Origin: Oscillospiraceae bacterium
GTDB lineage: Bacteria > Bacillota > Clostridia > Oscillospirales > WRJC01
Direction of reading: 5' to 3'
Assembly: GCA_009780985.1 (NCBI GenBank)
Contig: WQYZ01000003.1
Coordinates: 1 to 61,166, forward strand
Length of the DNA stretch: 61,166 nucleotides
Made by a program: the position numbers and the translations under genes. The notes below the pieces were generated by a model, which did no database searches, had not been told where the DNA came from, and was given only the letters and a program-made list of their open reading frames with translations. Shown piece after piece: positions 43,683-61,002 of this stretch (positions are counted from its first letter, which is position 1; each line of letters begins with the position of its first letter).

Positions 43683-43757
43683 GGTGGGTGTGGCTCAGTT
43701 GGTTAGAGCGCCAGGTTGTGGCCCTGGATGTCGCCGGTTCAAATCCGGTCATTCACC
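43683..43757 (+). tRNA. tRNA-His (GTG)
   Basis: The sequence folds into a full cloverleaf. The acceptor stem is GTGGGTG/CATTCAC, with an extra G(-1) at 43683 facing discriminator C73 at 43757, the identity mark of tRNA-His. The anticodon arm is CCAGG-TTGTGGC-CCTGG with anticodon GTG. The D-arm has GGCTCAGTTGGTTAGAGC, and the T-arm is GCCGG-TTCAAAT-CCGGT. CCA is not encoded. Confidence 0.97.
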
Positions 43758-43764
43758 CTATGGA

Positions 43765-43806
43765 AAAAATCCCGATATATTACGATATATCGGGATTTTT
43801 GTTTTT
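43765..43806 (+). terminator. Rho-independent terminator of tRNA-His
   Basis: A perfect 16-bp stem (43765-43780 with 43785-43800; AAAAATCCCG and CGGGATTTTT at the base) closes on the four-base loop TACG and is followed by GTTTTT. Confidence 0.9.
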
Positions 43807-43835: not shown

Positions 43836-45101
43836 TTACTGTAAATCTACAGAAGCATTAAGTATATCCTCGAACGCCCAGTGATTTGCAGACAAGTCAT
43901 TATATAAACTCCGTAAACTGTCAGGAATTTTATCAAGGCTTGGTCTGCCAAGTATACGATTGACAATTACCACGCATTCGGCGCGCGTAATATTCGCCTC
44001 AGGTCTGAATGTATTGTCCGGATAGCCGGACAGCCATCCTTTGGCGTATGCTGATGCAATGCTTTCGTATGCCCAGTAGTCTTTTGAAATATCTGTGAAT
44101 GGTATAGTTGCGTCGTCTAAAATATCATAAAAACGTGATGCAATTACTACAAATTCTGCTCTTGTGATGGGTTCGTTGGCTCTGAATGTATCGTCCGCGT
44201 AGCCTCTCAGTATGCCTTTTGAAGCTAAATATGTCACCGCTTGCGCGTACCATTCGTTGCCGGTTATATCGCTGAATGGGTTGACAATAATATCATTTTT
44301 ACTGCCGTCTTTTACCAAACGGAAGAATATCATAGCAACTTCAGCGCGAGTAATCGCAATGTCCGGTTTTACGCTTCCGTCCCCGTAGCCGCTGATATAC
44401 TTTTTGCCTGTTTCAAATGGATTGCTATTATTTGTTATAATATTACCTAAAGCTTGCGGTACAGAATTATCTGGAATGTCTTTGGTTTCTTCTCCTGATG
44501 CCGTCGTTTCAGCTCCGTTGGTTCCTGTGCCGCCGTTGTTACCGCCGGTTCCGGTACCGCTGTAGTCAGGGTGAGGCGTAACAGGAGCAGGAGGAGCAGG
44601 TGTAACGTTAATCGCACCGTTCACGCCGTTCAATGGAAATGGATTTTCTATATCGTTGGCTGAAGCCGCCTGAGCGGTAACTGTTAATGATATTGTATCA
44701 GTCGTAACACCGTTCGCTATTTTGAAACTAAGAACAGCCAATTTGCCATTTACATTGCTATCTTTTAAACCGTCGTTAGACGCAGTAACTGTAACACTCC
44801 CTTGTTTATTCGCTACATCGGACTTAGTTGATACAAACGCTACTGTTTCTGCAAATACATCAAATTGTTGTGCACATCCTAAGTACGTTAATTTTGTATT
44901 GTCATAGCTAACATCAAATTCATATCCTGCGATACCTGTGTTACCCGATAATTCCACCGGCACGCTCACCGTGTCGCCTGCTTTACCTGTTACCGTACCT
45001 ACCGTTATTGTCGGGCTGGCGGCTAAAACCACCATAGGCAGCATACTTATCACCATCATAACTATAATAATCAGACAAAATGTTTTTATTAATTTTTTCA
45101 T
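43836..45101 (-). CDS. Cohesin-SLH cell-surface anchor protein
   Basis: A 421-residue exported protein: signal peptide (1-28), a cohesin domain at about 30-165 (TITVGTVTGKAGDTVSVPVE, then YDNTKLTYLG), a Pro/Gly/Thr linker (about 165-215), and three S-layer homology repeats (about 225-421) with the ITRAE motif repeated (ITRAEVAMIF, ITRAEFVVIA, ITRAECVVIV). In cellulosome-forming clostridia this architecture anchors dockerin-bearing proteins to the cell wall. The large protein encoded just upstream on the same strand has a dockerin-like end and a cohesin, and would be a natural partner. A good GGAGG precedes the ATG. Confidence 0.9.
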   Translation of the reverse strand: MKKLIKTFCLIIIVMMVISMLPMVVLAASPTITVGTVTGKAGDTVSVPVELSGNTGIAGYEFDVSYDNTKLTYLGCAQQFDVFAETVAFVSTKSDVANKQGSVTVTASNDGLKDSNVNGKLAVLSFKIANGVTTDTISLTVTAQAASANDIENPFPLNGVNGAINVTPAPPAPVTPHPDYSGTGTGGNNGGTGTNGAETTASGEETKDIPDNSVPQALGNIITNNSNPFETGKKYISGYGDGSVKPDIAITRAEVAMIFFRLVKDGSKNDIIVNPFSDITGNEWYAQAVTYLASKGILRGYADDTFRANEPITRAEFVVIASRFYDILDDATIPFTDISKDYWAYESIASAYAKGWLSGYPDNTFRPEANITRAECVVIVNRILGRPSLDKIPDSLRSLYNDLSANHWAFEDILNASVDLQ

Positions 45102-45150: not shown

Positions 45151-48100
45151 TTATTTTAACGAATATGCCGTAGTGAATTCCCTGAAAGCAAGCGTGTCAT
45201 CCTCAATGTCGCCTGTAACTCCCAATGCCAACTGCCGCGCCGCGCCAAGCTCATCAAGGTTCTTGTCGCCGTAATATCGGGAGAATATCATGAAATCCTT
45301 AAAATTCAAATCCCCGTCGCCGTTCAAATCAAACTTGACTACAACTGTTTTCGTGTCTTTATTATCGCCGTTCTCCAAAATAATTACCATTCCTGTGCCA
45401 AGCAGAGTATCCGGGTCTGTGATTTCATTGCCTTTACGGTCATATACTTTTATATTGTCGTGGTTATTCGCAAGTTCGTTCAGCAGGTCGCCGACTGTTG
45501 TTCCGTCTCCTGCTATAGAGCCGGTTATGAATCCGTTCTCAATATTGAAGTGCGACCCGCCTTTCAGGGTTATTCCCAACGGTTCATATATCGCCGTAAC
45601 AGTCAAGTCACCTTCGATGTCGCTGAAATCAGTTACCTTAGTGTTCGAATCAGTGAACCAGCCCGTGAATTTGTAACCTGGTACAGCCGGTGCCATGGGC
45701 GCAGTCGCAAATTCGCCGTACTTCACACTCTGTTCCTTTATCAAATTGCCGTCTTTATCGTTGAATATAACCGTATATGTGTTTTTATCGTATTGTGCTG
45801 TCACTGTAAGGTCTGATTTTATATTGCTGAAATCAGTGACTTTAGTGTTCAAATCAGTAAACCAACCTTTGAACGTATAACCTGTCCTCGTCGGATTTGT
45901 CGCCGGAGGCGTCGCTGACGTATTGTAGTCTACCATTTCACTTTTTAGCGTCGTACCATCCCAGTCTACGAATGTCACCTCGTAGCTGTTTATCTTATAT
46001 TGTGCCGTAACTGTGAGGTCGCCTTTGATATCTTCGAAAGAGTTGTCCCAACCTGTGAACGTGTAGCCTGTTACTGCCGGTGCTGTAGGCGCTGTTGCCG
46101 ATTCGCCGTATTTCACCGTCTGCGTATCGCCAATCGGGTTGCCGTCAAAGCCTATGAACGTAACCATGAAAGTAGGAACGGTTATTTTAATCCAACCGTC
46201 GCTTTTTGTGATGTCGGAAATCGGAACCTCGTCTGAACCAAGAAGAACGGAATCAAGCGATAAATCTACTTTAGCATATGTTACTGCGTCATCTTTTATT
46301 TTGAATTCAAGAGTAAACATAGTTCCGTCACCGGAGAAAACCGAAGAACCATTATCTGCAGTAACCCAAAACTTTCCGGCTGCATTTATCTCATTCAAAA
46401 AACCTGGCATAAACCTTCCGTCTCCGGCGGCAACGCTATCGGCAAATACGTCACTTTGCTCACAGCCTACATACTCTAATTTTGTATTGTCGAATGTTAT
46501 TTCGACTGTATATGTTACGATACCCGGGTTTTCCGTCAATGTAACCGGCACCTTTACCGTGTCGCCGGCTTTGCCTGTTGCCGTACCTACCGTTACTGTC
46601 GGATTATTTGTTGAAATCAGTTCCCACTCCGCCGTCAACTCTACGTCTGACGTAATCGGCGTGCTGAAATCGAACGCGGATCCCTCGTCGTCAGAATACC
46701 AATAGCAGAAATTGCAGCCGTCTTTAACTGGATCTGGCATTGGTCTGTCTACATAGTCGCCATTTGTCACTGGCACTGTGGTTGGATCGGTTCCATTGTC
46801 TGCGTCGAATGTAACGGTATAGATTATTGCCGGTACTTCTTCCCATTGTGCCGTCACGGTCGTGGGTTCGGTGATATTGCTGTAATCTCCAACCCAGCCA
46901 ATGAACGTGTAACCCGCTTTCGTCAGATTTGTCGGAGGCGTCGCCGTTTCGCCGTATGGAACGCTGTCAGTTCCGAGTACAGTAGTGCCGTCGCTGTCTA
47001 CAAATGTAACATTTATATTATACTGCGCTGTCACAGTTGTGGGTTCGATGATTTGGCTGAAATCTTCGGGGTCCCAGCCTGTGAACGTATAGCCTGTCCT
47101 CGTCGGATTTGTCACCGGAGGCGTCGCTGACGTATTGTAGTCTACCATTTCACTTTTTAGCGTCGTACCATCCCAGTCTACGAATGTCACTTCATAGCTG
47201 TCTATCTTATATTGTGCTATTATGGTGAGGTCGCCTTTGATATCTTCGAAAGAGTTGTCCCAACCTGTGAATGTATAACCTGTTCTCGTTGGATCACTCG
47301 GAGCTTTCGCATTGCCGCCTTCTGCCACGCTCTGCTGTTCGCCAATCTTATCGCCGTTCCAGTCTTGGAATATTACCGTGTAGTATGTCGTTACCGGAAC
47401 CGCCGTCCACTGTGCTATAAGCGTTACATCTGATGTGATCGCCACACCGAAATCAAACAACGTAGCTCCGCCGTAGCTCCAGCCGTCGAATGTGTATCCG
47501 TCTTTACTTGGGTCTGCGGGCTGTTTAGCCTTACCGCCGTCTGCCACTGTCTGACTGTCTGCCAGAGTTGTTGTGCCGTCGCTGTCGAAAAATGTTACTT
47601 TGTGGGTAACTGTAGGAGTTGTTCCGTCTGGAATAAACACAACGTCCCTTAAATAATTGTGACCGAGCGATACGGCTGGATATGTACCATATGCGGAGTA
47701 AACCCCTGTTTGCTTCGGATACGAAAGATTACTGCCATTATCTCCCGCACTTTCGGGATTGTTTGAGATCGCCGCATAATTCCCAGCCGCGTCGGTGGAA
47801 ACGGAAACGGTGTAGCTGACATCGGCTTTAACAGGCGTAGATGTTATTGGTAGGTATACCCAACCGTCATTGCCGTCAAAACTTACAGTGTCCTCGTAAA
47901 TTGCCTCACCAGTGCTGTTGTTGTATATTGCCACATGATGGTCTCCGGTTTCTTCCGCATACGCGAACACCCTAATATATGTTATCGTTCCGTCTACTGA
48001 TGGAGTGAATATTGTTCCCAGTTCACATGTTCCCGAGTTTGTGCATAGAATAATTCCGTCATCCGTGCTCAGATCGCCCCAAATTGTTTCGGCGTTGTCC

Positions 48101-51100
48101 GGTAGAACGAAGTCGCCGCTCGCTTTTACGGTTATTCTGACCGTATAGCTCGCTTCGTTCGTTCCGTCTGTCGCGGTGAACGTCACGGAATATATTCCGT
48201 GTTGTCCGACGTCAGGCGTCCAACCGAACTTCTGAGTATCAGAGTCAAAACTTGCGCCGCCAGGCAGATTAGCCGCAGAGTAAGTCAAGTCTCTGTCACT
48301 GACCGCGTGTACTGTGAAGCTGAGGCTGTTCCCCTCCGCTACGGTTTTATCTGCTATCGCGTCAAATATTGGAGTGTTATCCACCTCTGCCGCGTTGACC
48401 GTAACGTCAAAGCTCGTGGTTTTGGTTACTCCATTTTCGGTGTAGCTCACTGTCACAGTCTGAGTGCCTTCGGTATCGAGTTTTGAACCCTCAGCCGGAT
48501 TCGTTTTGTAGCCGCTGACTGCCTTGCTATCTTCGCTGCTGTAGGTCGCCGTTACCACCATACCTGTAAGGTCAAGGACATCGCCTACGGTATATTCTAT
48601 CGTTTTCGGCGGGGTTGTGACGGCTAACTTATCCAGTGTCACCATTGGCGGCTCTACGCCATCGGGAATGAAGACAACATCACGAAGGTAATTACAGCCG
48701 TATGTGTCCGTAGGGCGTGCCGTGAACGTTAAGTCTGTGTTAGCTACACCAAAATTATCTGGATAGTAAAGGCACCCGCCGTTGTTCCCACTGACCGAGG
48801 CATGTTGGATGGCTGGATAAGCCGTTGCGTCGTCCGTGCCAGTTGAAACAGAGACGGTGTAGTAGACGTCAGCGTCGATATGAAGCGGACTATCTAAATT
48901 ATAATACTCCCATTTATTTGCTCCGGTATAGTCAAACACTTCCGGTCCGAAGACTAGGTCCCCGTCATTGTTCCATATTGTGATTGTGTGCTCACCTGTT
49001 TCCCCTGGGATTCCGTATACCCTTACGGATGTTATGTTACCCGGTTCGGATGAATAGAACACAGTCCCTAAGTTATATGAAACGCCGTCTCCCTGGAATG
49101 CCCCTATGTCGGCTGTTTCATCGATATTGCCCCAGATGGTTTCCTCGCCGCCCTGCGGGACAACAGTTGCGGTTACGGTTATTGTTATTGTTTTGTTGCT
49201 GACCATTACCCCGTCGTCCGCCGTAAATTTTACGTTATACACACCGGACTGTCCGACGCTCGGCGTCCACTTGAATTCGCCTGTCTGCGCATTAAGAGTC
49301 GCGCCGTCGGGCAGCACATCCGCCGAATATGTAACCTGTCCGTTTTCGCTTGTTGCGAGTACGGTAAAACTGAGGCTTTCGCCTTCCTTCACGGTTTGAT
49401 CAGTCAAGTCAGAAAAGGTCGGAGCCTTGACCGCGCCGTCGTTCGGCACGAATACTACATCACGCAGATAGTTGTTATGATATTGATTATCCATGGGCTG
49501 CGTGCCTAAGTCGCCGTATACCCCGGCATATGCAGGATAAATGAGGTTCTTCCCATTGTTGCCCGCAGTTGCCGGCGAATTGTTGATCGACGCGTATAAA
49601 TACGGGTCACTCAATTGGGTGGAGACAGAGACGGTGTAGTAATGTCCGGCTTGAACCTGCACAGGTTCGGGTAATTCTATATAGACCCACTCGTTATCGC
49701 CCGTATATGTAGCAGTACCGCTGTAAATTTGCGTTCCGGGCACGAAAGCCGCGTCGCTTTCCCAAATGGATACGTTGTGAGTACCGGTTTCCTGCCCAGA
49801 GATATTCGCGTCGCCGTATACCCCACTGAACCCGAATATTTTGACGTGGGTTATCTCACCGTCAACGATCGGGGAAAACACCGTCCCAAGCTCGTACGCC
49901 CCGCCGTAACCCGCCGTTATGCCTTTTACGGAGGTACCCCAAATGGATTCGGAGTTATCCGGCAGGTTGTAAAAGCTTTTCACGGTTATCGTGATGGTCA
50001 CGCTGTCGAGGCTCAGCTTGTCGCTCGCGGTGAACGTTATGTTGTATACGCCGTATTGCCCGACACTCGGCGTCCACTTGAATTCGCCTGTCTGCGCGTT
50101 AAGGGTCGCGCTGTCTGGCAGTTTGTCCGCCGAAAAGGTTATCGGGACCAAAACCTCATTGCCGCCGTTATCCGCTGACAGCGTAAATCCTATCTGATCC
50201 TTTTCCGTTACGGTTATGGAATTCCCATCCACGTTGGACTGTATTGTCACCGCGGGGATGGCGTCGTTGGAATACTCAGCCGTAAATAAATCGCCGTCGT
50301 GCGCAGTGACGAACGCGTATCCGTTGCCTTTGACGGTTTCAACATCATAGCCGCTGGCCGGAACGCCATTTATGCTTTCCAGAATATGCCCATCATAAAA
50401 AGCTGGAATCATCGCGGTTAGGTTCCCGTAACCCTGACCCTGCGCTGGGGAAGAGACATTGAACGTCAGGACGCTCGTATTATTGTCCCAAGCTATGTTT
50501 TTGAAGCTTGCGCTGTCGCGCATGTTAGTGAAATTGTACATATCCCTGCCGCTGCAGATGGGGATGCCGTTGCTTTTAGAATAAGCCAATACTTGTACGG
50601 CTTCGCTCTTATAGCCGCTTCCGTCTCCGTTAAGCCAGCCTGCGGGATGGAAGTTGGCGGTCAGCCAGGCATAGTCCTCATTATTAAGGGCGTTGTCAAG
50701 CATTGTTTTATAATTTGCGGCTATAGTATAGTGGAAATATTCGTCCGGAAGCTGGGTGTCGTTCTGGTATATGTCCAGCACCTCGCCCTTGCTTGTGGAG
50801 AACTTCATGGGCATACCGCTTCCGTTCTCAAAGCCGGGGTTGCCGAGGTTCAGGAAGTCAAACACATTATAATAGTTGAAGTCCATCATAATGCCGTATT
50901 TCCGCTCTAACATTGCCTGAGCGGCGAACTCCGGCAATCCGTTTGAGTCTGTGCCGCACCATATCACACAGTGGTTGCGCACGGAAGTCGGTGACGGGCT
51001 GACACTGCCATATTTATTGTCGAAAATACTCTCAGCACTTGCGATAGTCGCGTCCGCAGACGCCCAAGACGGCTCAGATGCGTGCTCGAAATGGATCGCG

Positions 51101-52140
51101 AACTCATTACCTTCGTCAGTCCATGTCTTGATCTGCGCCGGCGAATCTATCATGTCGCTCACCCACGAATAAATGGATGCGTGACCGCCGTAACTCATAA
51201 CGGTATTGAATTCGTCCGCAAAATTTTGCTGCGCGCCATCCGAATCGCCCGTAAAGACAGTCATCGCCTTTTTACCGTCGGGGAAGTACCACAAGCGCGG
51301 CAAAGGCATCGTGGAGGTGTTCATCCATTCGATTATGTGAGACAGAAGCCGCATTTGCTCATCCGCCTGTGGTATTTCGACTTTTGTGTTGTCGTTGTAT
51401 GAACCGCCGTCTTTTTGGTACATTAAATCCCCCGCGCGGAGATAACCGTCATTGTTCGTATCCACACCTGCGTTGGCTGGATTCCCCTGCCTCGTATACA
51501 CGATGCTTTTGCATAGATCGAATGAAAACGCGGCTGTTCTGCCTCCGCCGTATTCATTCGCCGCGACTGCGGCACTGCCGGAATCTGTAACGCTGTTGTT
51601 ATATAAAGACGCTATTTTGCTGCCGGTTGTGAGTCCATATTTATCCGCGTCGCCATGGAATTTCATGGTTTCGGATATCAACCCCCGACCGATTTCAGTG
51701 GAAGTGTCAATTTTTATGTACCCTTCGGAAACTGCGCCGGATGTGCCTGAAATTCCGAATAGATTATAAAGCTGTGCGTCCGGCTGTATCCCGATTAAAT
51801 TTCCGCCGTCATTCACATATTGCTCAAGCATTGCGCTCTGCTCTGACGTGACTGATGTTTCTGTCAGAATAACTACGTCAAACTGATTGAGGTAATCTTC
51901 TGATAGATTATTTATATCTTCTGTTTCAAATTCATTGAATCCTTCTTCTTTTAATATCTCGCCCATATACGCGCCAAACGTGTTTGCAGAGTTGCTGTTT
52001 ACTACTAGAATAGGGTTTGATGAGCTTAGAGATGCCGAAGTATTTTCATCGGCTGCAAATATCGTAGTGGAAGGAAGAAGCCCGAATAACATACACACAA
52101 ATAATACAAAAGCCAATAATTTTCTAAATTGATTTTTCAT
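45151..52140 (-). CDS. Giant multidomain surface protein with deacetylase-like, cohesin and dockerin modules
   Basis: The 2329-residue exported protein has a signal peptide (1-29); an alpha/beta domain resembling ThuA/glutamine-amidotransferase folds (44-140); a polysaccharide-deacetylase-like region (about 285-600) with TGDSD (297-301) and HFEH (350-353); then Ig-like He_PIG modules (about 640-720, 906-990, 1255-1340), each with DSATLNAQTGEFKWTPSVGQ-like sequence, alternating with DUF4082 modules (733-898, 1000-1158, 1350-1504). A Big-type Ig domain lies at 1168-1250, five InlB-type repeats at 1513-1840, a cohesin at 1847-1990, three more InlB-type repeats to 2186, and a dockerin-like end whose first repeat, DLNGDGDLNFKDF (2271-2283), has all calcium ligands while the second is degenerate. 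AAGGTG precedes the ATG. Domain family calls are good; catalysis is unproven. Confidence 0.9.
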   Translation of the reverse strand: MKNQFRKLLAFVLFVCMLFGLLPSTTIFAADENTSASLSSSNPILVVNSNSANTFGAYMGEILKEEGFNEFETEDINNLSEDYLNQFDVVILTETSVTSEQSAMLEQYVNDGGNLIGIQPDAQLYNLFGISGTSGAVSEGYIKIDTSTEIGRGLISETMKFHGDADKYGLTTGSKIASLYNNSVTDSGSAAVAANEYGGGRTAAFSFDLCKSIVYTRQGNPANAGVDTNNDGYLRAGDLMYQKDGGSYNDNTKVEIPQADEQMRLLSHIIEWMNTSTMPLPRLWYFPDGKKAMTVFTGDSDGAQQNFADEFNTVMSYGGHASIYSWVSDMIDSPAQIKTWTDEGNEFAIHFEHASEPSWASADATIASAESIFDNKYGSVSPSPTSVRNHCVIWCGTDSNGLPEFAAQAMLERKYGIMMDFNYYNVFDFLNLGNPGFENGSGMPMKFSTSKGEVLDIYQNDTQLPDEYFHYTIAANYKTMLDNALNNEDYAWLTANFHPAGWLNGDGSGYKSEAVQVLAYSKSNGIPICSGRDMYNFTNMRDSASFKNIAWDNNTSVLTFNVSSPAQGQGYGNLTAMIPAFYDGHILESINGVPASGYDVETVKGNGYAFVTAHDGDLFTAEYSNDAIPAVTIQSNVDGNSITVTEKDQIGFTLSADNGGNEVLVPITFSADKLPDSATLNAQTGEFKWTPSVGQYGVYNITFTASDKLSLDSVTITITVKSFYNLPDNSESIWGTSVKGITAGYGGAYELGTVFSPIVDGEITHVKIFGFSGVYGDANISGQETGTHNVSIWESDAAFVPGTQIYSGTATYTGDNEWVYIELPEPVQVQAGHYYTVSVSTQLSDPYLYASINNSPATAGNNGKNLIYPAYAGVYGDLGTQPMDNQYHNNYLRDVVFVPNDGAVKAPTFSDLTDQTVKEGESLSFTVLATSENGQVTYSADVLPDGATLNAQTGEFKWTPSVGQSGVYNVKFTADDGVMVSNKTITITVTATVVPQGGEETIWGNIDETADIGAFQGDGVSYNLGTVFYSSEPGNITSVRVYGIPGETGEHTITIWNNDGDLVFGPEVFDYTGANKWEYYNLDSPLHIDADVYYTVSVSTGTDDATAYPAIQHASVSGNNGGCLYYPDNFGVANTDLTFTARPTDTYGCNYLRDVVFIPDGVEPPMVTLDKLAVTTPPKTIEYTVGDVLDLTGMVVTATYSSEDSKAVSGYKTNPAEGSKLDTEGTQTVTVSYTENGVTKTTSFDVTVNAAEVDNTPIFDAIADKTVAEGNSLSFTVHAVSDRDLTYSAANLPGGASFDSDTQKFGWTPDVGQHGIYSVTFTATDGTNEASYTVRITVKASGDFVLPDNAETIWGDLSTDDGIILCTNSGTCELGTIFTPSVDGTITYIRVFAYAEETGDHHVAIYNNSTGEAIYEDTVSFDGNDGWVYLPITSTPVKADVSYTVSVSTDAAGNYAAISNNPESAGDNGSNLSYPKQTGVYSAYGTYPAVSLGHNYLRDVVFIPDGTTPTVTHKVTFFDSDGTTTLADSQTVADGGKAKQPADPSKDGYTFDGWSYGGATLFDFGVAITSDVTLIAQWTAVPVTTYYTVIFQDWNGDKIGEQQSVAEGGNAKAPSDPTRTGYTFTGWDNSFEDIKGDLTIIAQYKIDSYEVTFVDWDGTTLKSEMVDYNTSATPPVTNPTRTGYTFTGWDPEDFSQIIEPTTVTAQYNINVTFVDSDGTTVLGTDSVPYGETATPPTNLTKAGYTFIGWVGDYSNITEPTTVTAQWEEVPAIIYTVTFDADNGTDPTTVPVTNGDYVDRPMPDPVKDGCNFCYWYSDDEGSAFDFSTPITSDVELTAEWELISTNNPTVTVGTATGKAGDTVKVPVTLTENPGIVTYTVEITFDNTKLEYVGCEQSDVFADSVAAGDGRFMPGFLNEINAAGKFWVTADNGSSVFSGDGTMFTLEFKIKDDAVTYAKVDLSLDSVLLGSDEVPISDITKSDGWIKITVPTFMVTFIGFDGNPIGDTQTVKYGESATAPTAPAVTGYTFTGWDNSFEDIKGDLTVTAQYKINSYEVTFVDWDGTTLKSEMVDYNTSATPPATNPTRTGYTFKGWFTDLNTKVTDFSNIKSDLTVTAQYDKNTYTVIFNDKDGNLIKEQSVKYGEFATAPMAPAVPGYKFTGWFTDSNTKVTDFSDIEGDLTVTAIYEPLGITLKGGSHFNIENGFITGSIAGDGTTVGDLLNELANNHDNIKVYDRKGNEITDPDTLLGTGMVIILENGDNKDTKTVVVKFDLNGDGDLNFKDFMIFSRYYGDKNLDELGAARQLALGVTGDIEDDTLAFREFTTAYSLK
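45872..46070. repeat. Intragenic DNA repeat, copy A
   Basis: About 200 bases encoding InlB-type repeat units are nearly identical (about ten differences by eye) to 47084-47282, offset by 1212 bases (404 codons). The two copies flank the cohesin-coding part of the giant gene. Confidence 0.8.
47084..47282. repeat. Intragenic DNA repeat, copy B
   Basis: Partner of 45872-46070 in the same orientation. Recombination between the copies would delete or duplicate the 404-codon segment containing the cohesin module without shifting the frame. Confidence 0.8.
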
Positions 52141-52742: not shown

Positions 52743-52783
52743 AAAAAGCCCGTCATCGCCTATAACGGCAAAAGCGGACTTCT
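52743..52783 (-). terminator. Terminator of the GH30-like gene
   Basis: On the minus strand AAGTCCG pairs with CGGGCTT (one mismatch) around an inner GCC/GGC hairpin, followed by TTTTTTATTTT. It lies about 40 bases after the stop codon. Confidence 0.6.
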
Positions 52784-52823: not shown

Positions 52824-55049
52824 CTATTGGCTGTTCTTCGTTTTAACTTTGTGTCGAAACCAAAAGAATATTAACGCCCCTATTGTTATAACTATAATTA
52901 CAGTTATTATAATTATTACTTCCGCCGGTATTTGTTTTTGAATATCAGAAGCAGTCGCAGTCAATATTTCTGTCTTCGTTATCTCACTCGCAGGATTTGT
53001 GTTTGTTACCGGTGTTTCTATGCCGGCGACGGCGTTTTTATCATTGTTGGCAGAATTGACAAAATCCGCATCGTTGGCAGAAGTGACAACGACAATGACG
53101 GTGTTAGTGGGAACTTCCACGACAATGCTGCCATTTTCAAGATTGCGAGGGGGCAAAACCTTCGGCTCGTAATTGTTCGGAGCGACTTTGCCGCCATTCA
53201 TCGAAATTTCTTCGTCAAAATAATATACCGTCGCCGATTTGCCGTTAAGATTATTTAAACGGTAATATCTGTCCGTCGTTTTCTTCGTATCAGCCAGTAA
53301 GACGATATCGGCATTGTCGTTTCTCCATGCGCACATGTCTATACGCTCGCCCATTGCCGTGTTTATCTCCGGGTCGTCCGTTTCAAGTAAAGCTACTTTG
53401 GAGCCGGGTACGGCATTTTTGTATATTATAGAGAGTAAGTTGTACTGCATACTCTTGTTTAACGTCGTGGTCCCGTTGCCTGACAGAAGCGTTTCCTGAT
53501 TGGGAACGTTTATTTCGTACCCGGACGCAAAGGCAGTCCACCAGAACCAGTCGTTTATGCGGGCATTTACCATGTTGGAACTGAGCACTTCGGCGAGATC
53601 CATGGTTTTGGAAAGCATTGTAGGACTCGGCAGCCCTTCACCGGTGCAAAATTCCGTCATCCATGCTTGTTTTTCAGGATACAGCTCCAATGCTGCGCGC
53701 CAGTTGCGCACATCATTGTCGCTGGTCCACCCCGGATGAACATAAGCGTGAACAGCGACTATTGGAATCGCCGAATTTAATTCGGGGTCGGCGGCGAATT
53801 GACTGAATTTATTGCCAAAGAATTTTATATTCCTCAGGAAAACGTCTCCGATGCCAATCAAGGGAACATCAGTATAACCGGCGGCATCAAGCGTTTTGCG
53901 CATAAGTTTTGCAACCCGTACATATTGTTCCGGCGTGTATAAGCACGACTGATAATCAGCGACATTTTCCGGTTCATTCTGCAAATCGAAAGCATATGGC
54001 TTGGGCAATCCCAAATCTTTAGTAAAGTAATCAAGACACTTCACGATGTAGTCGCAGTAGTCCTGTTCATTTTCGACTTTGAGCGAAGCGTCAGTTCCGT
54101 CGGCGTTCAGTCCGCTTATTGAATTATTTGTTTTAAATTCCGGCGGCGGCGTCCATACGCTTAACAGGTACTTCTTGATTCCATACTCGCAACCGCTTTT
54201 TATAGCGCTTGCAACCTGATTCAACCGGTCATAGTCGAGCGTTTTGTTCGGACCGCCGCATTCGCCGTATAATTCAATACGGTAATTCGTTATGCCCATG
54301 TCTTTAAATACGGCATCTTTAAGCAGCGTTCTGCCGTCTGTTCCCGAGCTGTCCGAACCGAAAAATACTCCCCAGTCGGTAATCTCCTGCTGCAGTTCTC
54401 CTGTAAGGGTAATATTGTATATATCAGGATTTACATACGGCTCTTGGGGAACTACAACAGTCTCGACAGTTTTGTAAGGCGGCGGTAAATTCGGGTCATT
54501 TGTCGCGGTAAGGGCGAAACCGGAACCCAACGCTTCCCATGCCTCGCCAAAATCTTTAGGCCACAAAACCTTTATGTATTTGGAATTTATCCCCGTTAAA
54601 GTATATATTCCGCGAACCCAGGCGGCGCCAAGATCCGTTGCGTCTTTAGTATAATGGTCAAATTCTGTCCAGGGACCGTCCGGATTGTCGGATACTTCAA
54701 AACTGAAATCAACATCGAAAGTAGGATGCTTGACGGCTTTCCATACCAACGCCGTTATTTTGTCGTCAGGATAAGCCGCGCCGGGATATAAAATCATACT
54801 GCTTTCGTCCGAAGCGTCGTAATTACCCGCGGGCTGGAAGCACTCTGTGTAATCGGAATCCGCATTCCAGTGTCCTGCCTGTACCTGATTGTATGAATAA
54901 ATATTTTGGTCATCCATACCGCTGGCATCGCTTGCGCTTATATGCGCCGTTTCTGCAATCTGAGTTGGCGTTTCAGCCGCAAGAGCCTGTGAAGTTAAAG
55001 GCGTCATCATCGCGAAAAATAGCAAAAAAGAAATCACCTTGCCTTTCAT
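52824..55049 (-). CDS. Membrane-anchored GH30-like glycoside hydrolase
   Basis: A 741-residue exported enzyme: signal peptide (1-25), a beta-sandwich-like N-terminal region (about 35-185), a clan GH-A barrel (about 212-520), a small beta domain after it, a Thr/Asn-rich linker, and a C-terminal transmembrane helix (about 708-729) with a basic tail. The barrel has DLQNEPENVADYQSCLYTPE with acid/base Glu359 and WMTEFC with nucleophile Glu466, a pattern close to GH30 xylanases. Attack on xylan or a related plant polymer is likely but specificity is inferred. The transmembrane tail, instead of dockerin or SLH, keeps it at the membrane. It lies upstream of the cohesin/dockerin gene on the same strand. 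Confidence 0.85.
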   Translation of the reverse strand: MKGKVISFLLFFAMMTPLTSQALAAETPTQIAETAHISASDASGMDDQNIYSYNQVQAGHWNADSDYTECFQPAGNYDASDESSMILYPGAAYPDDKITALVWKAVKHPTFDVDFSFEVSDNPDGPWTEFDHYTKDATDLGAAWVRGIYTLTGINSKYIKVLWPKDFGEAWEALGSGFALTATNDPNLPPPYKTVETVVVPQEPYVNPDIYNITLTGELQQEITDWGVFFGSDSSGTDGRTLLKDAVFKDMGITNYRIELYGECGGPNKTLDYDRLNQVASAIKSGCEYGIKKYLLSVWTPPPEFKTNNSISGLNADGTDASLKVENEQDYCDYIVKCLDYFTKDLGLPKPYAFDLQNEPENVADYQSCLYTPEQYVRVAKLMRKTLDAAGYTDVPLIGIGDVFLRNIKFFGNKFSQFAADPELNSAIPIVAVHAYVHPGWTSDNDVRNWRAALELYPEKQAWMTEFCTGEGLPSPTMLSKTMDLAEVLSSNMVNARINDWFWWTAFASGYEINVPNQETLLSGNGTTTLNKSMQYNLLSIIYKNAVPGSKVALLETDDPEINTAMGERIDMCAWRNDNADIVLLADTKKTTDRYYRLNNLNGKSATVYYFDEEISMNGGKVAPNNYEPKVLPPRNLENGSIVVEVPTNTVIVVVTSANDADFVNSANNDKNAVAGIETPVTNTNPASEITKTEILTATASDIQKQIPAEVIIIITVIIVITIGALIFFWFRHKVKTKNSQ

Positions 55050-55376: not shown

Positions 55377-56939
55377 ATGAATAATACAGCAATATATCTT
55401 AGGCTTTCTTCGTCTGACGAGAACTACGGCGAAAGCAACAGCATCAAAAATCAGCGCGATTTACTGACGATGTTTGTCGCAAATCAGCCGGATTTACGCG
55501 AGACAAAAATCATAGAGGTATGCGACGATGGTTACAGCGGCACTAATTTTGACCGCCCCGGAGTGAAACGTCTGCTTGAACTCGTAAAAAACGGCGAAGT
55601 GAAGTGCATACTTGTCAAGGATTTTTCGCGTTTCGGCAGAAACTATATCGAAACCTGCGACTATATCGAGCAGATTTTCCCAAGCCTGGGAGTGCGGTTC
55701 ATCAGCGTGAACGACGGTTATGACAGTGACAAAACAGATATGTCGGCAGGCAATCTCAACGTCGCGTTTATGAATCTGATTCATGATTTATACGCCAAAG
55801 ATATATCCACAAAAATCAAAACCGCGCAAAGAGTCCGTTGGGAAAAAGGCGAAATATCAACCCCTTCCACGATTTTTGGCTATGCCAAATCACCTGACGA
55901 CAAGCATAAAATTGTTATTGATAAGCCTGCGGCGGATATAGTCAAACAGGTATTTAACATGGCGGCAAATGGTTACGGAACTGCGGAGATAGCGCGATTT
56001 TTGAACGCGAATAATATACCCACGCCGGGTAAATATAAAAAACGCGCCGATAAAGTTAATAACGACTCGTCAATATTTTGGACTAATAGTATGGTGCGTA
56101 AAATTATAACGGACGAGAAATATACAGGCAAGGCGATATTCGGTAAAACCCGCAGAAAAGCCGTCGGCAGCAGACAAATTCTTGAAGTGAACAGAAACGA
56201 GTGGATAATAAAAGAAAACGCCTTTGAAGCGATTATTACGGAAGATATTTTTACCCGGGCGCAGAAAAAAGATTCAAGAGAAAGATTACCCGTTCATAAA
56301 CAAAAAGAACAGCGCATAATATATGGGAAAGTCCGCTGTTATAACTGCGGGCGTCTCATGGACCGCCGGACTTATAAAAATCCCGTATATGTATGCGAAA
56401 CACCGAAATTCATCAATTCGCCGGGCTGTGTCCGCGGGCATACTTCAGAGAGAGCGGCTGCGCACTGCCTGTTTGAGATGGTACGAATAAGATTAGAAAT
56501 TTATTCAGATTCAGAAAATGACATATTGAAACGTAACGAAGCTGATTTATCAGAGAATAAACGCCGCCAAATATCGCTTAAAATACAAGAAACCCGGCGC
56601 TTGCTGCAGAAATTGTCGCAAAATCAAATATCGTTGTACGAGAGTTATCAGGATAAAAAAATAAGCCGCGAACAATATTCAACCGAACGCGAAACGTTCA
56701 ATTCGCAGATTGAAAGCCTCGAAAATCAGTTACAGTTGTTAAGATCCGAACTTGAACTGACTGCGCTTCCTAAATCCGCGCCGCCTGAACAAACTTATAT
56801 GCGGTCTGTGAACGGCACGGAACTATCGCGGAAAATGGTTGATTGCCTGATTGACGGCATTATCGCATACGGCGCAGACAGAATTAAGATTAACTGGAAA
56901 ACGTCTGATGATTTGACCCTCATTGAAAAAAAGCGGTAA
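55377..56939 (+). CDS. Large serine recombinase
   Basis: A site-specific DNA recombinase of 520 residues. The resolvase domain (about 1-150) has nucleophile Ser11 in YLRLSSSD and DFSRFGRNY (82-90). A recombinase domain (about 165-265) has IFGYAKSPD and AEIARFLNANNIPTP. A zinc ribbon with Cys321, 324, 340 and 351 follows, then a coiled coil (about 400-455). It resembles TnpX/Tn4451-type and phage-like integrases of clostridia. The length is complete. No other transposon or phage genes are nearby, so it may be an orphan or the relic of an element. The ATG lacks a textbook ribosome site apart from AAGCGGAAA. Confidence 0.93.
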   Translation: MNNTAIYLRLSSSDENYGESNSIKNQRDLLTMFVANQPDLRETKIIEVCDDGYSGTNFDRPGVKRLLELVKNGEVKCILVKDFSRFGRNYIETCDYIEQIFPSLGVRFISVNDGYDSDKTDMSAGNLNVAFMNLIHDLYAKDISTKIKTAQRVRWEKGEISTPSTIFGYAKSPDDKHKIVIDKPAADIVKQVFNMAANGYGTAEIARFLNANNIPTPGKYKKRADKVNNDSSIFWTNSMVRKIITDEKYTGKAIFGKTRRKAVGSRQILEVNRNEWIIKENAFEAIITEDIFTRAQKKDSRERLPVHKQKEQRIIYGKVRCYNCGRLMDRRTYKNPVYVCETPKFINSPGCVRGHTSERAAAHCLFEMVRIRLEIYSDSENDILKRNEADLSENKRRQISLKIQETRRLLQKLSQNQISLYESYQDKKISREQYSTERETFNSQIESLENQLQLLRSELELTALPKSAPPEQTYMRSVNGTELSRKMVDCLIDGIIAYGADRIKINWKTSDDLTLIEKKR

Positions 56940-58896: not shown

Positions 58897-61002
58897 TTAT
58901 TTTATCCCCTGCGCCAATAAAACCATAAGCCTGTTTAAAACGGTCGCGGCTTCCGCTCTTGTAAGAGTTTTCGCGGGCATAAACATGCCGTTTGAACCTT
59001 GTAAAAGTCCTAAATTTGTGCAGGTCCTCACGTCGTTTGTATATACCGGATTTATGGAGTTCAAATCGGAATAGTTAAGCGCGGGCGTAATAAATTTTGA
59101 CGTGTCGATTCCCGCATATTCCGCGGCTCTCGCTATCATATACGCCATTTCCTCGCGCGTGACCGCTTTGTTCGGATTATAGTCAAGCCCCGTCGCATAT
59201 CCGTTAAGCCCCATTGTATCGCCGGTTTGAATGTCGTTATAAAACCAATCCGAAGATTTTACGTCGCTGTAAGTCTTTGCAGTTTTCGGCGCGGGCGCGT
59301 TATATATATTTGACAAAACCCTTGTCAGCATTGCGCAGAATTCCGCGCGCGTCAAAGTGCCGTCGGGTTGATAAGTTCCGTCCGTATAACCGTTTACTAT
59401 AAACGAGTTCGCGGCGTTTAATATATCGGTTTTTGCCCAATGATTTGATATGTCGCTGAAGCTCGCGTTTCTCTGCGCTATCCAGTATGTGACTGCGCTT
59501 CTCGGCAGTTTTATTTTTATTACGCCGCCGGATTTAACCTGAGGAATCGGGAAAGCCGGGCTGCTCGTTATAAATCTGTAACTGTCGTCTTTTACGGGAA
59601 CGCTTAAATAAACGTTGTCAGGGAATTTACCGTTCAAATAAGCGGAACCTACACTATTGCCCGATTTGTCGTATACGGTGAAAGCGATGAAGTACAGAAA
59701 CTGCTGAGACGTGTCCATTTTAACCGCGAGATTATAATCCCCGGTCAGATAATCGCTTTTCAAGCCGTTTGCATAACTGAACGGAACGTCCAAATATCCG
59801 CCCGCAGTGAAATTAAATCTGAAAACTCCGTTGTTATATTGTTTGCAGAGGTCGGACATTGTCTTTGCGTTTATCAGACAGGTATAAACTCCGGTTTTGA
59901 TATTGTAACTGTAAATCCCGTTGTTTATATTGCTTATATTGTCCTGAACGTCAAACTTATCGATAATTGCGCCGGTCGAGTCAATTACGGTGAAGTTTAT
60001 ATTCGGGGTTTTTACCGGAACTGCCGTATTTTTCGTCGAGAACGTTGTTATGCCTGTCGTCTGTCCGGCGATTGTAACGATGCACGACAAAGTTATGGTT
60101 ACATTATTTATCGTTATGTCAACCATATATCTTCCGGAGTAACCTTCTGAAGCATTGTTTATTACAAGAGTGTCTCCCGTAGCGTTTGATATTAAAGTGC
60201 CTTTGGAATACCATTGATATTGTACAGAAGAATTGTTTTTATCGCTTACGTCAACTGAAAGCTCCAAATCTATGCCCGCCGCAGCATATATATTTGACGG
60301 AACTTTATGAAAATTCCACTCCACTTTTCTGAAATTACTGAACACGGAACTGTCGTATCCCGCTGCGTCCGACGGGATTATAAACACGCAGTTTGACGGA
60401 ACCCCGGCAAACGCGCTGCTTACTGCATTGTAAGCTGCGCCGTTTGAATTGAACGCCACCACTGTTTTAAGTCCGGCGCAGTTTGCAAAGGCATTTTCGC
60501 TTATGCTTGTCAAATACTGCGGAAGCGCAACGCTGTCGAGAACGTAACAGTTTGAAAAAGCGTTCGCGCCGATTGTCTGCACATACGGGCTTATACTAAC
60601 GTTTAAAAGAGAGTAGCAGTTCGCAAACGCGCTGTCCCCTATCGCGGTTACGCTCATCGGAATAGCTATGCTCTGTAAACCTGCGCAATTCTGAAACGCT
60701 CCGTCGGGAATTTTATTGTCTTTGAATGTCGCGTCTGTGAGATTAAGAGATATAATATTCGGCAGAGTTTTTATAAAATCACAGTCGGCTTTTGTGATTT
60801 GTCCGTTTCCGGTTATAGTCAGCACATAAACGCCTGTGTCGTTTGAACCAAACGCGGTTTCAAAATCCGCGTCGGAGCTGCTGTAATTCACCGTAAGATA
60901 AGCCGACGCCGCCGATATGGCGATATTCATAACCGGCACAATCAGAAATACCGCAATCAACAGAGATAATGCTTTTTTTAATTTATTTTTCATATTTACC
61001 AT
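58897..61002 (-). CDS. BspA-type leucine-rich repeat protein with SLH anchor
   Basis: A 701-residue exported protein: signal peptide (about 1-31), leucine-rich repeats of the BspA/LRR_5 type (about 80-205; IPDGAFQNCAGLQSIAIP, then IGDSAFANCYSLLNVSI), an Ig-like domain (about 230-313; VQYQWYSKGTLI), a beta-rich region, and three SLH repeats (about 520-700; SDISNHWAKTDILNA, TRAEFCAML). It should be bound to cell-wall polymers and may mediate adhesion. The start ATG at 61002 has AAGGATT about ten bases upstream. It is the second SLH protein in the window. Confidence 0.9.
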   Translation of the reverse strand: MVNMKNKLKKALSLLIAVFLIVPVMNIAISAASAYLTVNYSSSDADFETAFGSNDTGVYVLTITGNGQITKADCDFIKTLPNIISLNLTDATFKDNKIPDGAFQNCAGLQSIAIPMSVTAIGDSAFANCYSLLNVSISPYVQTIGANAFSNCYVLDSVALPQYLTSISENAFANCAGLKTVVAFNSNGAAYNAVSSAFAGVPSNCVFIIPSDAAGYDSSVFSNFRKVEWNFHKVPSNIYAAAGIDLELSVDVSDKNNSSVQYQWYSKGTLISNATGDTLVINNASEGYSGRYMVDITINNVTITLSCIVTIAGQTTGITTFSTKNTAVPVKTPNINFTVIDSTGAIIDKFDVQDNISNINNGIYSYNIKTGVYTCLINAKTMSDLCKQYNNGVFRFNFTAGGYLDVPFSYANGLKSDYLTGDYNLAVKMDTSQQFLYFIAFTVYDKSGNSVGSAYLNGKFPDNVYLSVPVKDDSYRFITSSPAFPIPQVKSGGVIKIKLPRSAVTYWIAQRNASFSDISNHWAKTDILNAANSFIVNGYTDGTYQPDGTLTRAEFCAMLTRVLSNIYNAPAPKTAKTYSDVKSSDWFYNDIQTGDTMGLNGYATGLDYNPNKAVTREEMAYMIARAAEYAGIDTSKFITPALNYSDLNSINPVYTNDVRTCTNLGLLQGSNGMFMPAKTLTRAEAATVLNRLMVLLAQGIK

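Follow-up and report, generated by a model that had tools for sequence, protein, structure and literature searches.

A predicted two-gene surface-display unit joining an esterase-like head to cohesin and dockerin-like modules in an Oscillospiraceae bacterium

Analysis of a 61,166-nucleotide stretch of an Oscillospiraceae genome (the window), from a gut-type anaerobe, revealed two adjacent minus-strand genes that can be read as a surface-display unit, in which an enzyme-bearing monovalent adaptor would be docked on its own SLH anchor. Based on the sequence, a probability of about 0.6 is given to this reading. The adaptor, a protein of 2329 aa, is presumed to be secreted and to be tethered to the S-layer or cell wall by an SLH protein whose gene begins 49 bp downstream and whose cohesin would receive the X-plus-dockerin-like end of the adaptor. 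A long stalk would be built from the InlB repeats, the Ig-like domains and the DUF4082 copies, the last perhaps sugar-binding, and the head carried at its end would most likely act as a metal-dependent carbohydrate esterase or de-N-acetylase, both activity and substrate being predicted. An internal cohesin would leave one further socket, into which a single additional dockerin protein could fit, perhaps a second molecule of the adaptor itself, which is why the protein would work as an enzyme-bearing monovalent adaptor. This reading is favoured by the position of the cohesin-SLH gene, by the likeness of its cohesin to the internal one and by 26 of 60 order relatives in which cohesin and dockerin share an ORF or lie in neighbouring genes.

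The larger gene could be identified in the list of open reading frames and translations as one ORF (45151-52140, minus strand). The preliminary description of a single chain is thereby confirmed, and most of the parts listed in it are real. Pfam analysis of the protein gave eight Flg_new/InlB-type repeats, three DUF4082 copies, three He_PIG domains, one cohesin and one Big_3 domain, the strong matches lying far beyond chance. The first four kinds, all named before with the same copy numbers, are each well above the Pfam cut-off, while Big_3 (aa 1177-1248) had been missed. The DUF4082/He_PIG alternation exists as three units, although in each of them He_PIG comes first and DUF4082 second. No credible Pfam match was obtained for aa 286-640 up to an E-value limit of 10. 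The features of the gene pair and its borders are as follows.

52750-52768, minus strand: terminator-like hairpin past the upstream GH30-like gene (pattern scan, consensus match only)
52054-52140, minus strand: signal-peptide-like N-terminus, aa 1-29 (by reading the translation)
51310-52020, minus strand: ThuA/GATase-like head domain, aa 41-277 (Pfam near-match and model alignment)
50506-51276, minus strand: NodB-like (beta/alpha)7 putative carbohydrate esterase domain, aa 289-545, with D299, D301, H350, R388, H390 and H498 (model alignment)
50269-50508, minus strand: C-terminal beta domain of the head, aa 545-624 (model strands past residue 505; position as in Agd3)
49978-50229, minus strand: He_PIG Ig-like domain 1, aa 638-721 (Pfam)
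49465-49914, minus strand: DUF4082 copy 1 (48.2 bits, above cut-off)
49168-49410, minus strand: He_PIG domain 2, aa 911-991 (Pfam)
48688-49098, minus strand: DUF4082 copy 2 (66.4 bits)
48397-48612, minus strand: Big_3 Ig-like domain, aa 1177-1248 (26.9 bits, cut-off 21.2)
48124-48360, minus strand: He_PIG / Big_9 domain 3, aa 1261-1339 (Pfam)
47653-48036, minus strand: DUF4082 copy 3 (58.3 bits)
46621-47601, minus strand: InlB-type (Flg_new) repeats 1-5, aa 1514-1840 (Pfam)
46183-46599, minus strand: cohesin domain, aa 1848-1986 (PF00963, 63.6 bits, cut-off 24.1)
45583-46170, minus strand: InlB-type repeats 6-8, aa 1991-2186 (Pfam)
45367-45588, minus strand: X-like module preceding the dockerin, aa 2185-2258 (alignment with class relatives)
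45154-45369, minus strand: dockerin-like C-terminus with one canonical and one degenerate calcium loop (Dockerin_1 15.5 bits; alignment)
43836-45101, minus strand: downstream gene of 421 aa, presumed anchor, with a cohesin (60.4 bits) and three SLH repeats (122.3 bits) (Pfam)
44604-45011, minus strand: cohesin of the downstream gene (Pfam)
43765-43800, unstranded: palindromic terminator-like hairpin of 16 pairs at the boundary of the gene pair and tRNA-His (pattern scan; a consensus match, no proof)

The fold of the head was predicted with confidence (pLDDT 91.2, pTM 0.94) from 63 aligned sequences; it comprises three domains, of ThuA-like, NodB-like (beta/alpha)7 and beta type. For the ThuA part, Pfam gave 30.0 bits at aa 57-119, slightly under the cut-off of 33.4, and VIA-align aligned model residues 1-237 to the ThuA-like chains 2gk3, 4jqs and 1t0b with Z 17-18, in agreement with the GATase-like domain proposed earlier. 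The deacetylase-like fold, for which structure prediction had been asked, is borne out as well: CE4-type chains with the (beta/alpha)7 NodB fold (3qbu, 3rxz and 1z7a) align at Z 18.5-18.9, with 18.5 for 3qbu over residues 249-505 and 18.9 for 1z7a over residues 171-505 (VIA-align). Sequence searches of the head against PDB chains gave no relevant match. Foldseek ranked Agd3 (6nwz, E 3.2e-15) first and PelA (9cgy) second, in a list from which the absence of a family carries no meaning. The Agd3-type order of alpha/beta/alpha, esterase and beta domain could be followed in the secondary structure of the model, while superposition of the whole head on Agd3 is loose (469 residues aligned, rmsd 10.1). 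On the model, the head shares its layout with Agd3 (CE18) and PelA (CE21), both of them exopolysaccharide deacetylases, and most likely is a metal-dependent carbohydrate esterase or de-N-acetylase.

Four residues, D299, H350, H390 and H498, are invariant in the 63 aligned heads, and R388 is kept in 60. Position 301 holds His in 58 heads, Glu in four and Asp in the window protein alone, and no other residue. The metal site expected from the motifs TGDSD and HFEH could be supported in part: TGDSD was rightly placed, but the second His of HFEH (H353) occurs in one of the 63 heads, that of the window, and HFEH was rejected as a metal pair. The partner position in a canonical HxxxH, 354, is Ala in the window protein and Cys in 56 heads. 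Compared with CE4, the adjacent Asp-Asp of motif 1 and the HxxxH of motif 2 are replaced by D299-S300-D301 and by H350 with A354; the Asp-Asp (CM1) and HxxxH (CM2) motifs of CE18 are likewise absent. From CE21 the window protein has the D-x-D of base and metal Asp, as D299-x-D301, with His (58) or Glu (4) at 301 in the other heads, and lacks the HxxxH metal pair. Because the site differs from those of CE4, CE18 and CE21, the head may be inactive or run another reaction. One such possibility is a sugar-binding adhesin, in which a degenerate NodB-like fold would recognise glycans without cleaving acetyl groups; the altered CE4 motifs (no HxxxH, Ser at 300) and the long, adhesin-like stalk of InlB repeats and Ig domains agree with it. 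We regard this as unlikely, since four polar residues of the metal-site and acid-base type never vary and position 301 admits only His, Glu or Asp, which argues for catalysis rather than decay. For an esterase head, D299 may serve as base, residue 301 with H350 and H390 as metal ligands, and H498 as acid.

A scan of named genomes gave 342 stretches encoding head relatives, from which 80 loci (L036-L115) of many phyla were kept, some of them cut by contig ends. All 80 contain the head and 67 also DUF4082, accompanied by He_PIG in six, while neither InlB repeats (Pfam) nor a significant SLH match was found in any. A cohesin is present in one homologue, L047 from an Acidobacteria metagenome assembly, which combines the head and two DUF4082 copies with a cohesin that passes the cut-off (51.5 bits) and a sub-threshold dockerin-like stretch (18.1 bits). 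This architecture search argues against the earlier statement that the window protein is not of a described type, as head and DUF4082 recur together and L047 adds cohesin and sub-threshold dockerin. At 1385-9334 of L047, one chain carries DMFA2_C, DUF4082, the same type of head, cohesin and the dockerin-like stretch. Dockerin-like stretches were found in two further homologues, L079 (26.1 bits, above the cut-off) and L068 (17.9 bits, below). Plasmid-borne homologues were identified in 27 Sinorhizobium records, one Pararhizobium and one Falsirhodobacter; the head was not found in phage records. In Sinorhizobium meliloti the homologue (L030, 8584-10761) has an extra N-terminal Ig-like stretch and lies in an exopolysaccharide-type region of a large plasmid, near sugar-transferase and CpsD/CapB-type kinase genes. 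The Falsirhodobacter homologue adjoins a gene annotated as exopolysaccharide biosynthesis. For the ThuA-NodB-DUF4082 proteins of many phyla no family name was found, and this widespread head family seems to have been studied by nobody.

Among 147 genomes of the order, the head was found in the window's own genome only, and DUF4082 above the cut-off in two including it. Across 398 genomes of the phylum, two (the window's own included) match over most of the head model and three further ones match in the ThuA part alone. Weak matches were obtained in two of 391 class genomes besides the window's own. The one in G194 is a divergent, stand-alone relative of 597 aa (L034, 4184-5974) in which the D, E, H, H, H pattern can be recognised by eye; the one in G368 is confined to the ThuA part. 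A second rare Bacillota relative beside L034 occurs in G531 (L260 and L264), apparently split across two frames. Given this rarity of head and DUF4082 in the order, the front half of the protein looks foreign and the back half native, and the head may have been gained by gene transfer. Its G+C content (47.8%) is only mildly higher than that of neighbouring genes. In the tree the window head sits on a long branch (1.25), not firmly placed and with the fork above it open; the rows nearest by path are Bacteroidales, which names no donor.

The C-terminus can be called dockerin-like. Its first calcium loop (D-x-N-x-D-G-x5-D, aa 2271-2282) is canonical, which supports in part the dockerin of the preliminary description, but the second repeat is degenerate and the two calcium-binding loop-helix repeats of a type I dockerin are not both present. 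Dockerin_1 (PF00404) scored 15.5 and 13.6 bits in two scans, where Pfam requires 22.9. With a profile made from dockerins of relatives, the domain E-value was 0.029, and this end was not called by the profile in the survey of 60 regions described below. A single-sequence model of the X-dockerin end was of low confidence (pLDDT 47.7). The stretch aa 2185-2329 is matched in 19 of 391 class genomes, the window's own included, where X-like modules precede dockerins; no second copy of it was found in its own assembly. Cohesin and dockerin-like end may on the other hand have ceased to be plug and socket and serve as stalk or capping domains, with the protein released or held in some other way. We consider this rather improbable. 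It would account for the sub-threshold score and the degenerate loop, and a cohesin together with a weak dockerin is also present in the Acidobacteria homologue, whose setting is quite unlike this one. It fits poorly, however, with the similar cohesin in the cohesin-SLH gene 49 bp downstream and with relatives that have the same arrangement and dockerins above the cut-off.

Docking on the neighbouring protein, the favoured reading, draws on the structure of the gene pair. The downstream gene (43836-45101) combines cohesin and SLH repeats as in SLH-anchoring scaffoldins; it is separated from the 2329-aa ORF by a 49-bp gap and has an AGGAG-like site before its ATG. Its cohesin is 46% identical to the internal one in an alignment of 110 columns, and at the DNA level the two form a 75% direct repeat over 147 nt, so that one is probably a duplicate of the other. 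Because the hairpin at 52750-52768 follows the GH30-like gene, the pair probably has its own transcription, and we read the two genes as one unit.

The wider surroundings carry further genes of interest. At 52824-55049 (minus strand) a GH30/GH59-like protein with a hydrophobic C-terminal stretch is encoded; among solved structures it comes closest to GH30-type enzymes. A further S-layer-linked protein, with BspA-type leucine-rich repeats and SLH repeats, is encoded nearby (58897-61002, minus strand). A serine recombinase gene (55377-56939, plus strand) and a tRNA-His gene (43684-43758, plus strand) flank the cluster, and an Rfam scan of the window gave this tRNA only. Both same-genus genomes match htpG to the left of the cluster and one matches the aldo/keto reductase gene to the right, with hardly any match between; the cluster between these two genes is possibly an inserted segment.

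Cohesin-dockerin pairs are best known from fibre-digesting complexes, and the internal cohesin might accordingly gather dockerin-bearing glycosidases for polymer breakdown, as part of a mini-cellulosome. One cohesin is free in principle and a dockerin above the cut-off is present on contig C355. We judge this to be very unlikely, since the assembly has two cohesins above the cut-off, few dockerins and no multi-cohesin scaffoldin that could be seen. Moreover, no dockerin was matched in the GH30-like protein encoded upstream, which by eye ends in a hydrophobic anchor. A cellulosome proper was rejected on the two cohesins in two proteins and the few dockerins, counted in an assembly that is 87.7% complete. 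Both cohesins belong to the gene pair discussed here. With 6.2% contamination in addition to that completeness, partners may be missing from the assembly or foreign to it.

The internal cohesin is the single one in the adaptor (63.6 bits), as expected of a monovalent adaptor. Chaining of the protein to itself, as suggested earlier, is possible given the alike internal and anchor cohesins, but the more direct partner of the dockerin-like end is the cohesin-SLH protein of the next gene. If both cohesins share specificity, one dockerin could bind either and chains could form.

Cohesins are present in 66 and dockerins in 84 of the 147 order genomes, counting the window's own in each case. For 60 of the 65 order relatives with a cohesin, the region of the best cohesin was surveyed with profiles built in this analysis (the location was not listed for the other five); second regions of counted genomes (L190, L196) and class genomes (L202, L203) were not counted. 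The cohesin was found again in 54 regions and missed in six. As raw counts, with adjacency defined as less than 400 bp on one strand, cohesin and dockerin share an ORF in 18 of the 60 regions and lie in adjacent genes in 19, with either arrangement in 26; in 35, a cohesin ORF also carries SLH or ends in a hydrophobic anchor. The plug-and-socket layout is thus common in the order, judged by these profile matches. The nearest counterpart is L189, where a 1427-aa protein combining nine InlB-type repeats with cohesin and dockerin precedes a cohesin-SLH protein (confirmed by Pfam). L200 and L192 are similar, and in L192 two cohesin-dockerin proteins stand in line with a cohesin anchored by a hydrophobic C-terminus. 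In L192 (5782-14108) and L246 (8522-16001), neighbouring genes with near-identical dockerins (0.90-0.96) stand beside an anchored cohesin and are candidates for ordered surface chains. In another genome (G043, contig C2, 56482-56643) a dockerin match lies inside an open frame of 8376 aa, a giant protein.

Cohesins from different ORFs of one region are on average 0.337 identical (22 pairs), against 0.196 for different regions (2528 pairs). Eleven of the 22 exceed 0.275, the 95th percentile of different-region pairs, and the window pair reaches 0.42. For dockerins of neighbouring ORFs the identity is 0.703 (8 pairs) against 0.310 (658 pairs). Gene duplication alone would give the same likeness, and these values support chaining without proving it.

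A broader and tentative proposal, which we think has the odds against it, takes the head and the display system together. The head would found an esterase family sister to CE18 and CE21, spread across many phyla and mostly fused to DUF4082, with the second metal His relocated from HxxxH to the invariant R-x-H motif. Cohesin-dockerin surface chains would be found order-wide, growing outward from an SLH or membrane cohesin anchor and unrelated to fibre digestion, and this species would have spliced a foreign enzyme into that modular surface fibre system. If the reading of the gene pair is right, a large secreted family (annotated in databases only as 'DUF4082' or 'Ig-like domain-containing') would gain a predicted reaction, exopolysaccharide deacetylation, with named residues. 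Cohesin and dockerin in one order of anaerobes would often be a socket and plug for hanging repeat-rich surface proteins, and the adjoining anchor gene would tell which cohesin pairs with a dockerin protein. Follow-up is merited by the head family and its altered metal site, and by the use of cohesin-dockerin pairs for surface display across the order.

The combination of cohesin, dockerin and DUF4082 was not found in the literature searched, outside which most subscription journals lie. DUF4082 was encountered there as one protein in a secretome table, in the part of that source available (PMC4257694). What looks new here is the head family, together with the joining of such a head to surface-docking parts native to the order. 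The ThuA-NodB-DUF4082 proteins of other phyla share the head of the window protein and are without its InlB repeats.

According to the accessible part of its description, Agd3 (CE18, 6nwz) is ordered as an alpha/beta/alpha domain, a distorted (beta/alpha)7 esterase domain and a beta domain, and the arginine of its CM3 motif is R613 (PMC7229062). R388 of the window head is a candidate counterpart of this arginine. The window head has the same order of three domains, and in both the acid His, presumed to be H498 in the window head, comes late in the esterase domain. Agd3 uses Asp-Asp and HxxxH metal motifs, whereas the window family shows Asp-x-(His/Glu/Asp), a single His and an R-x-H motif whose His never varies. 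In PelA (CE21, 9cgy), as far as the excerpt goes, a ThuA-like domain precedes the deacetylase and base and metal Asp are spaced D-x-D (PMC12022489). The window head likewise begins with a ThuA-like domain and has D299-x-D301; PelA differs in its HxxxH, in an extra hydrolase domain and in working in the Pel system.

Enzymes that have a cohesin and a dockerin of their own have been published, in the sections of the papers available, as Amy4 (PMC5814915) and as adaptors of Paenibacillus guangzhouensis (PMC11557425), which again argues against the view that the window protein is of a type not described. Cohesin and dockerin in one chain as an unprecedented feature was rejected on these two systems and on the order survey. 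A GH31 protein of C. perfringens also has both in one chain, by the portion of the report at hand (PMC12997984). For the Ruminococcus bromii amylosome, the same partial source proposes that Amy4 (Sca1), an enzyme carrying both modules, aggregates with itself. Cohesins of anchored scaffoldins link its dockerin to the cell surface, and this binding depends on calcium (PMC5814915). Amy4 and the window protein both join an enzyme, putative in the window protein, to a cohesin and a dockerin or dockerin-like end. In Amy4 the enzyme is a GH13 amylase, in a system anchored by a sortase signal, while the window protein has an Agd3/PelA-like head with DUF4082 and InlB repeats, and an SLH anchor. P. guangzhouensis encodes 28 monovalent adaptors, many of them with N-terminal glycosidases (GH2, 20, 29, 31, 43), and SLH anchors, as stated in the part of that study consulted (PMC11557425). 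These adaptors resemble the window protein in having an N-terminal enzyme, one cohesin, one dockerin (in the window protein a dockerin-like end below the cut-off) and SLH anchors with no conventional cellulosome. They differ in that their enzymes are glycosidases, borne by many of the 28 proteins, while the window encodes one such protein, with a putative esterase.
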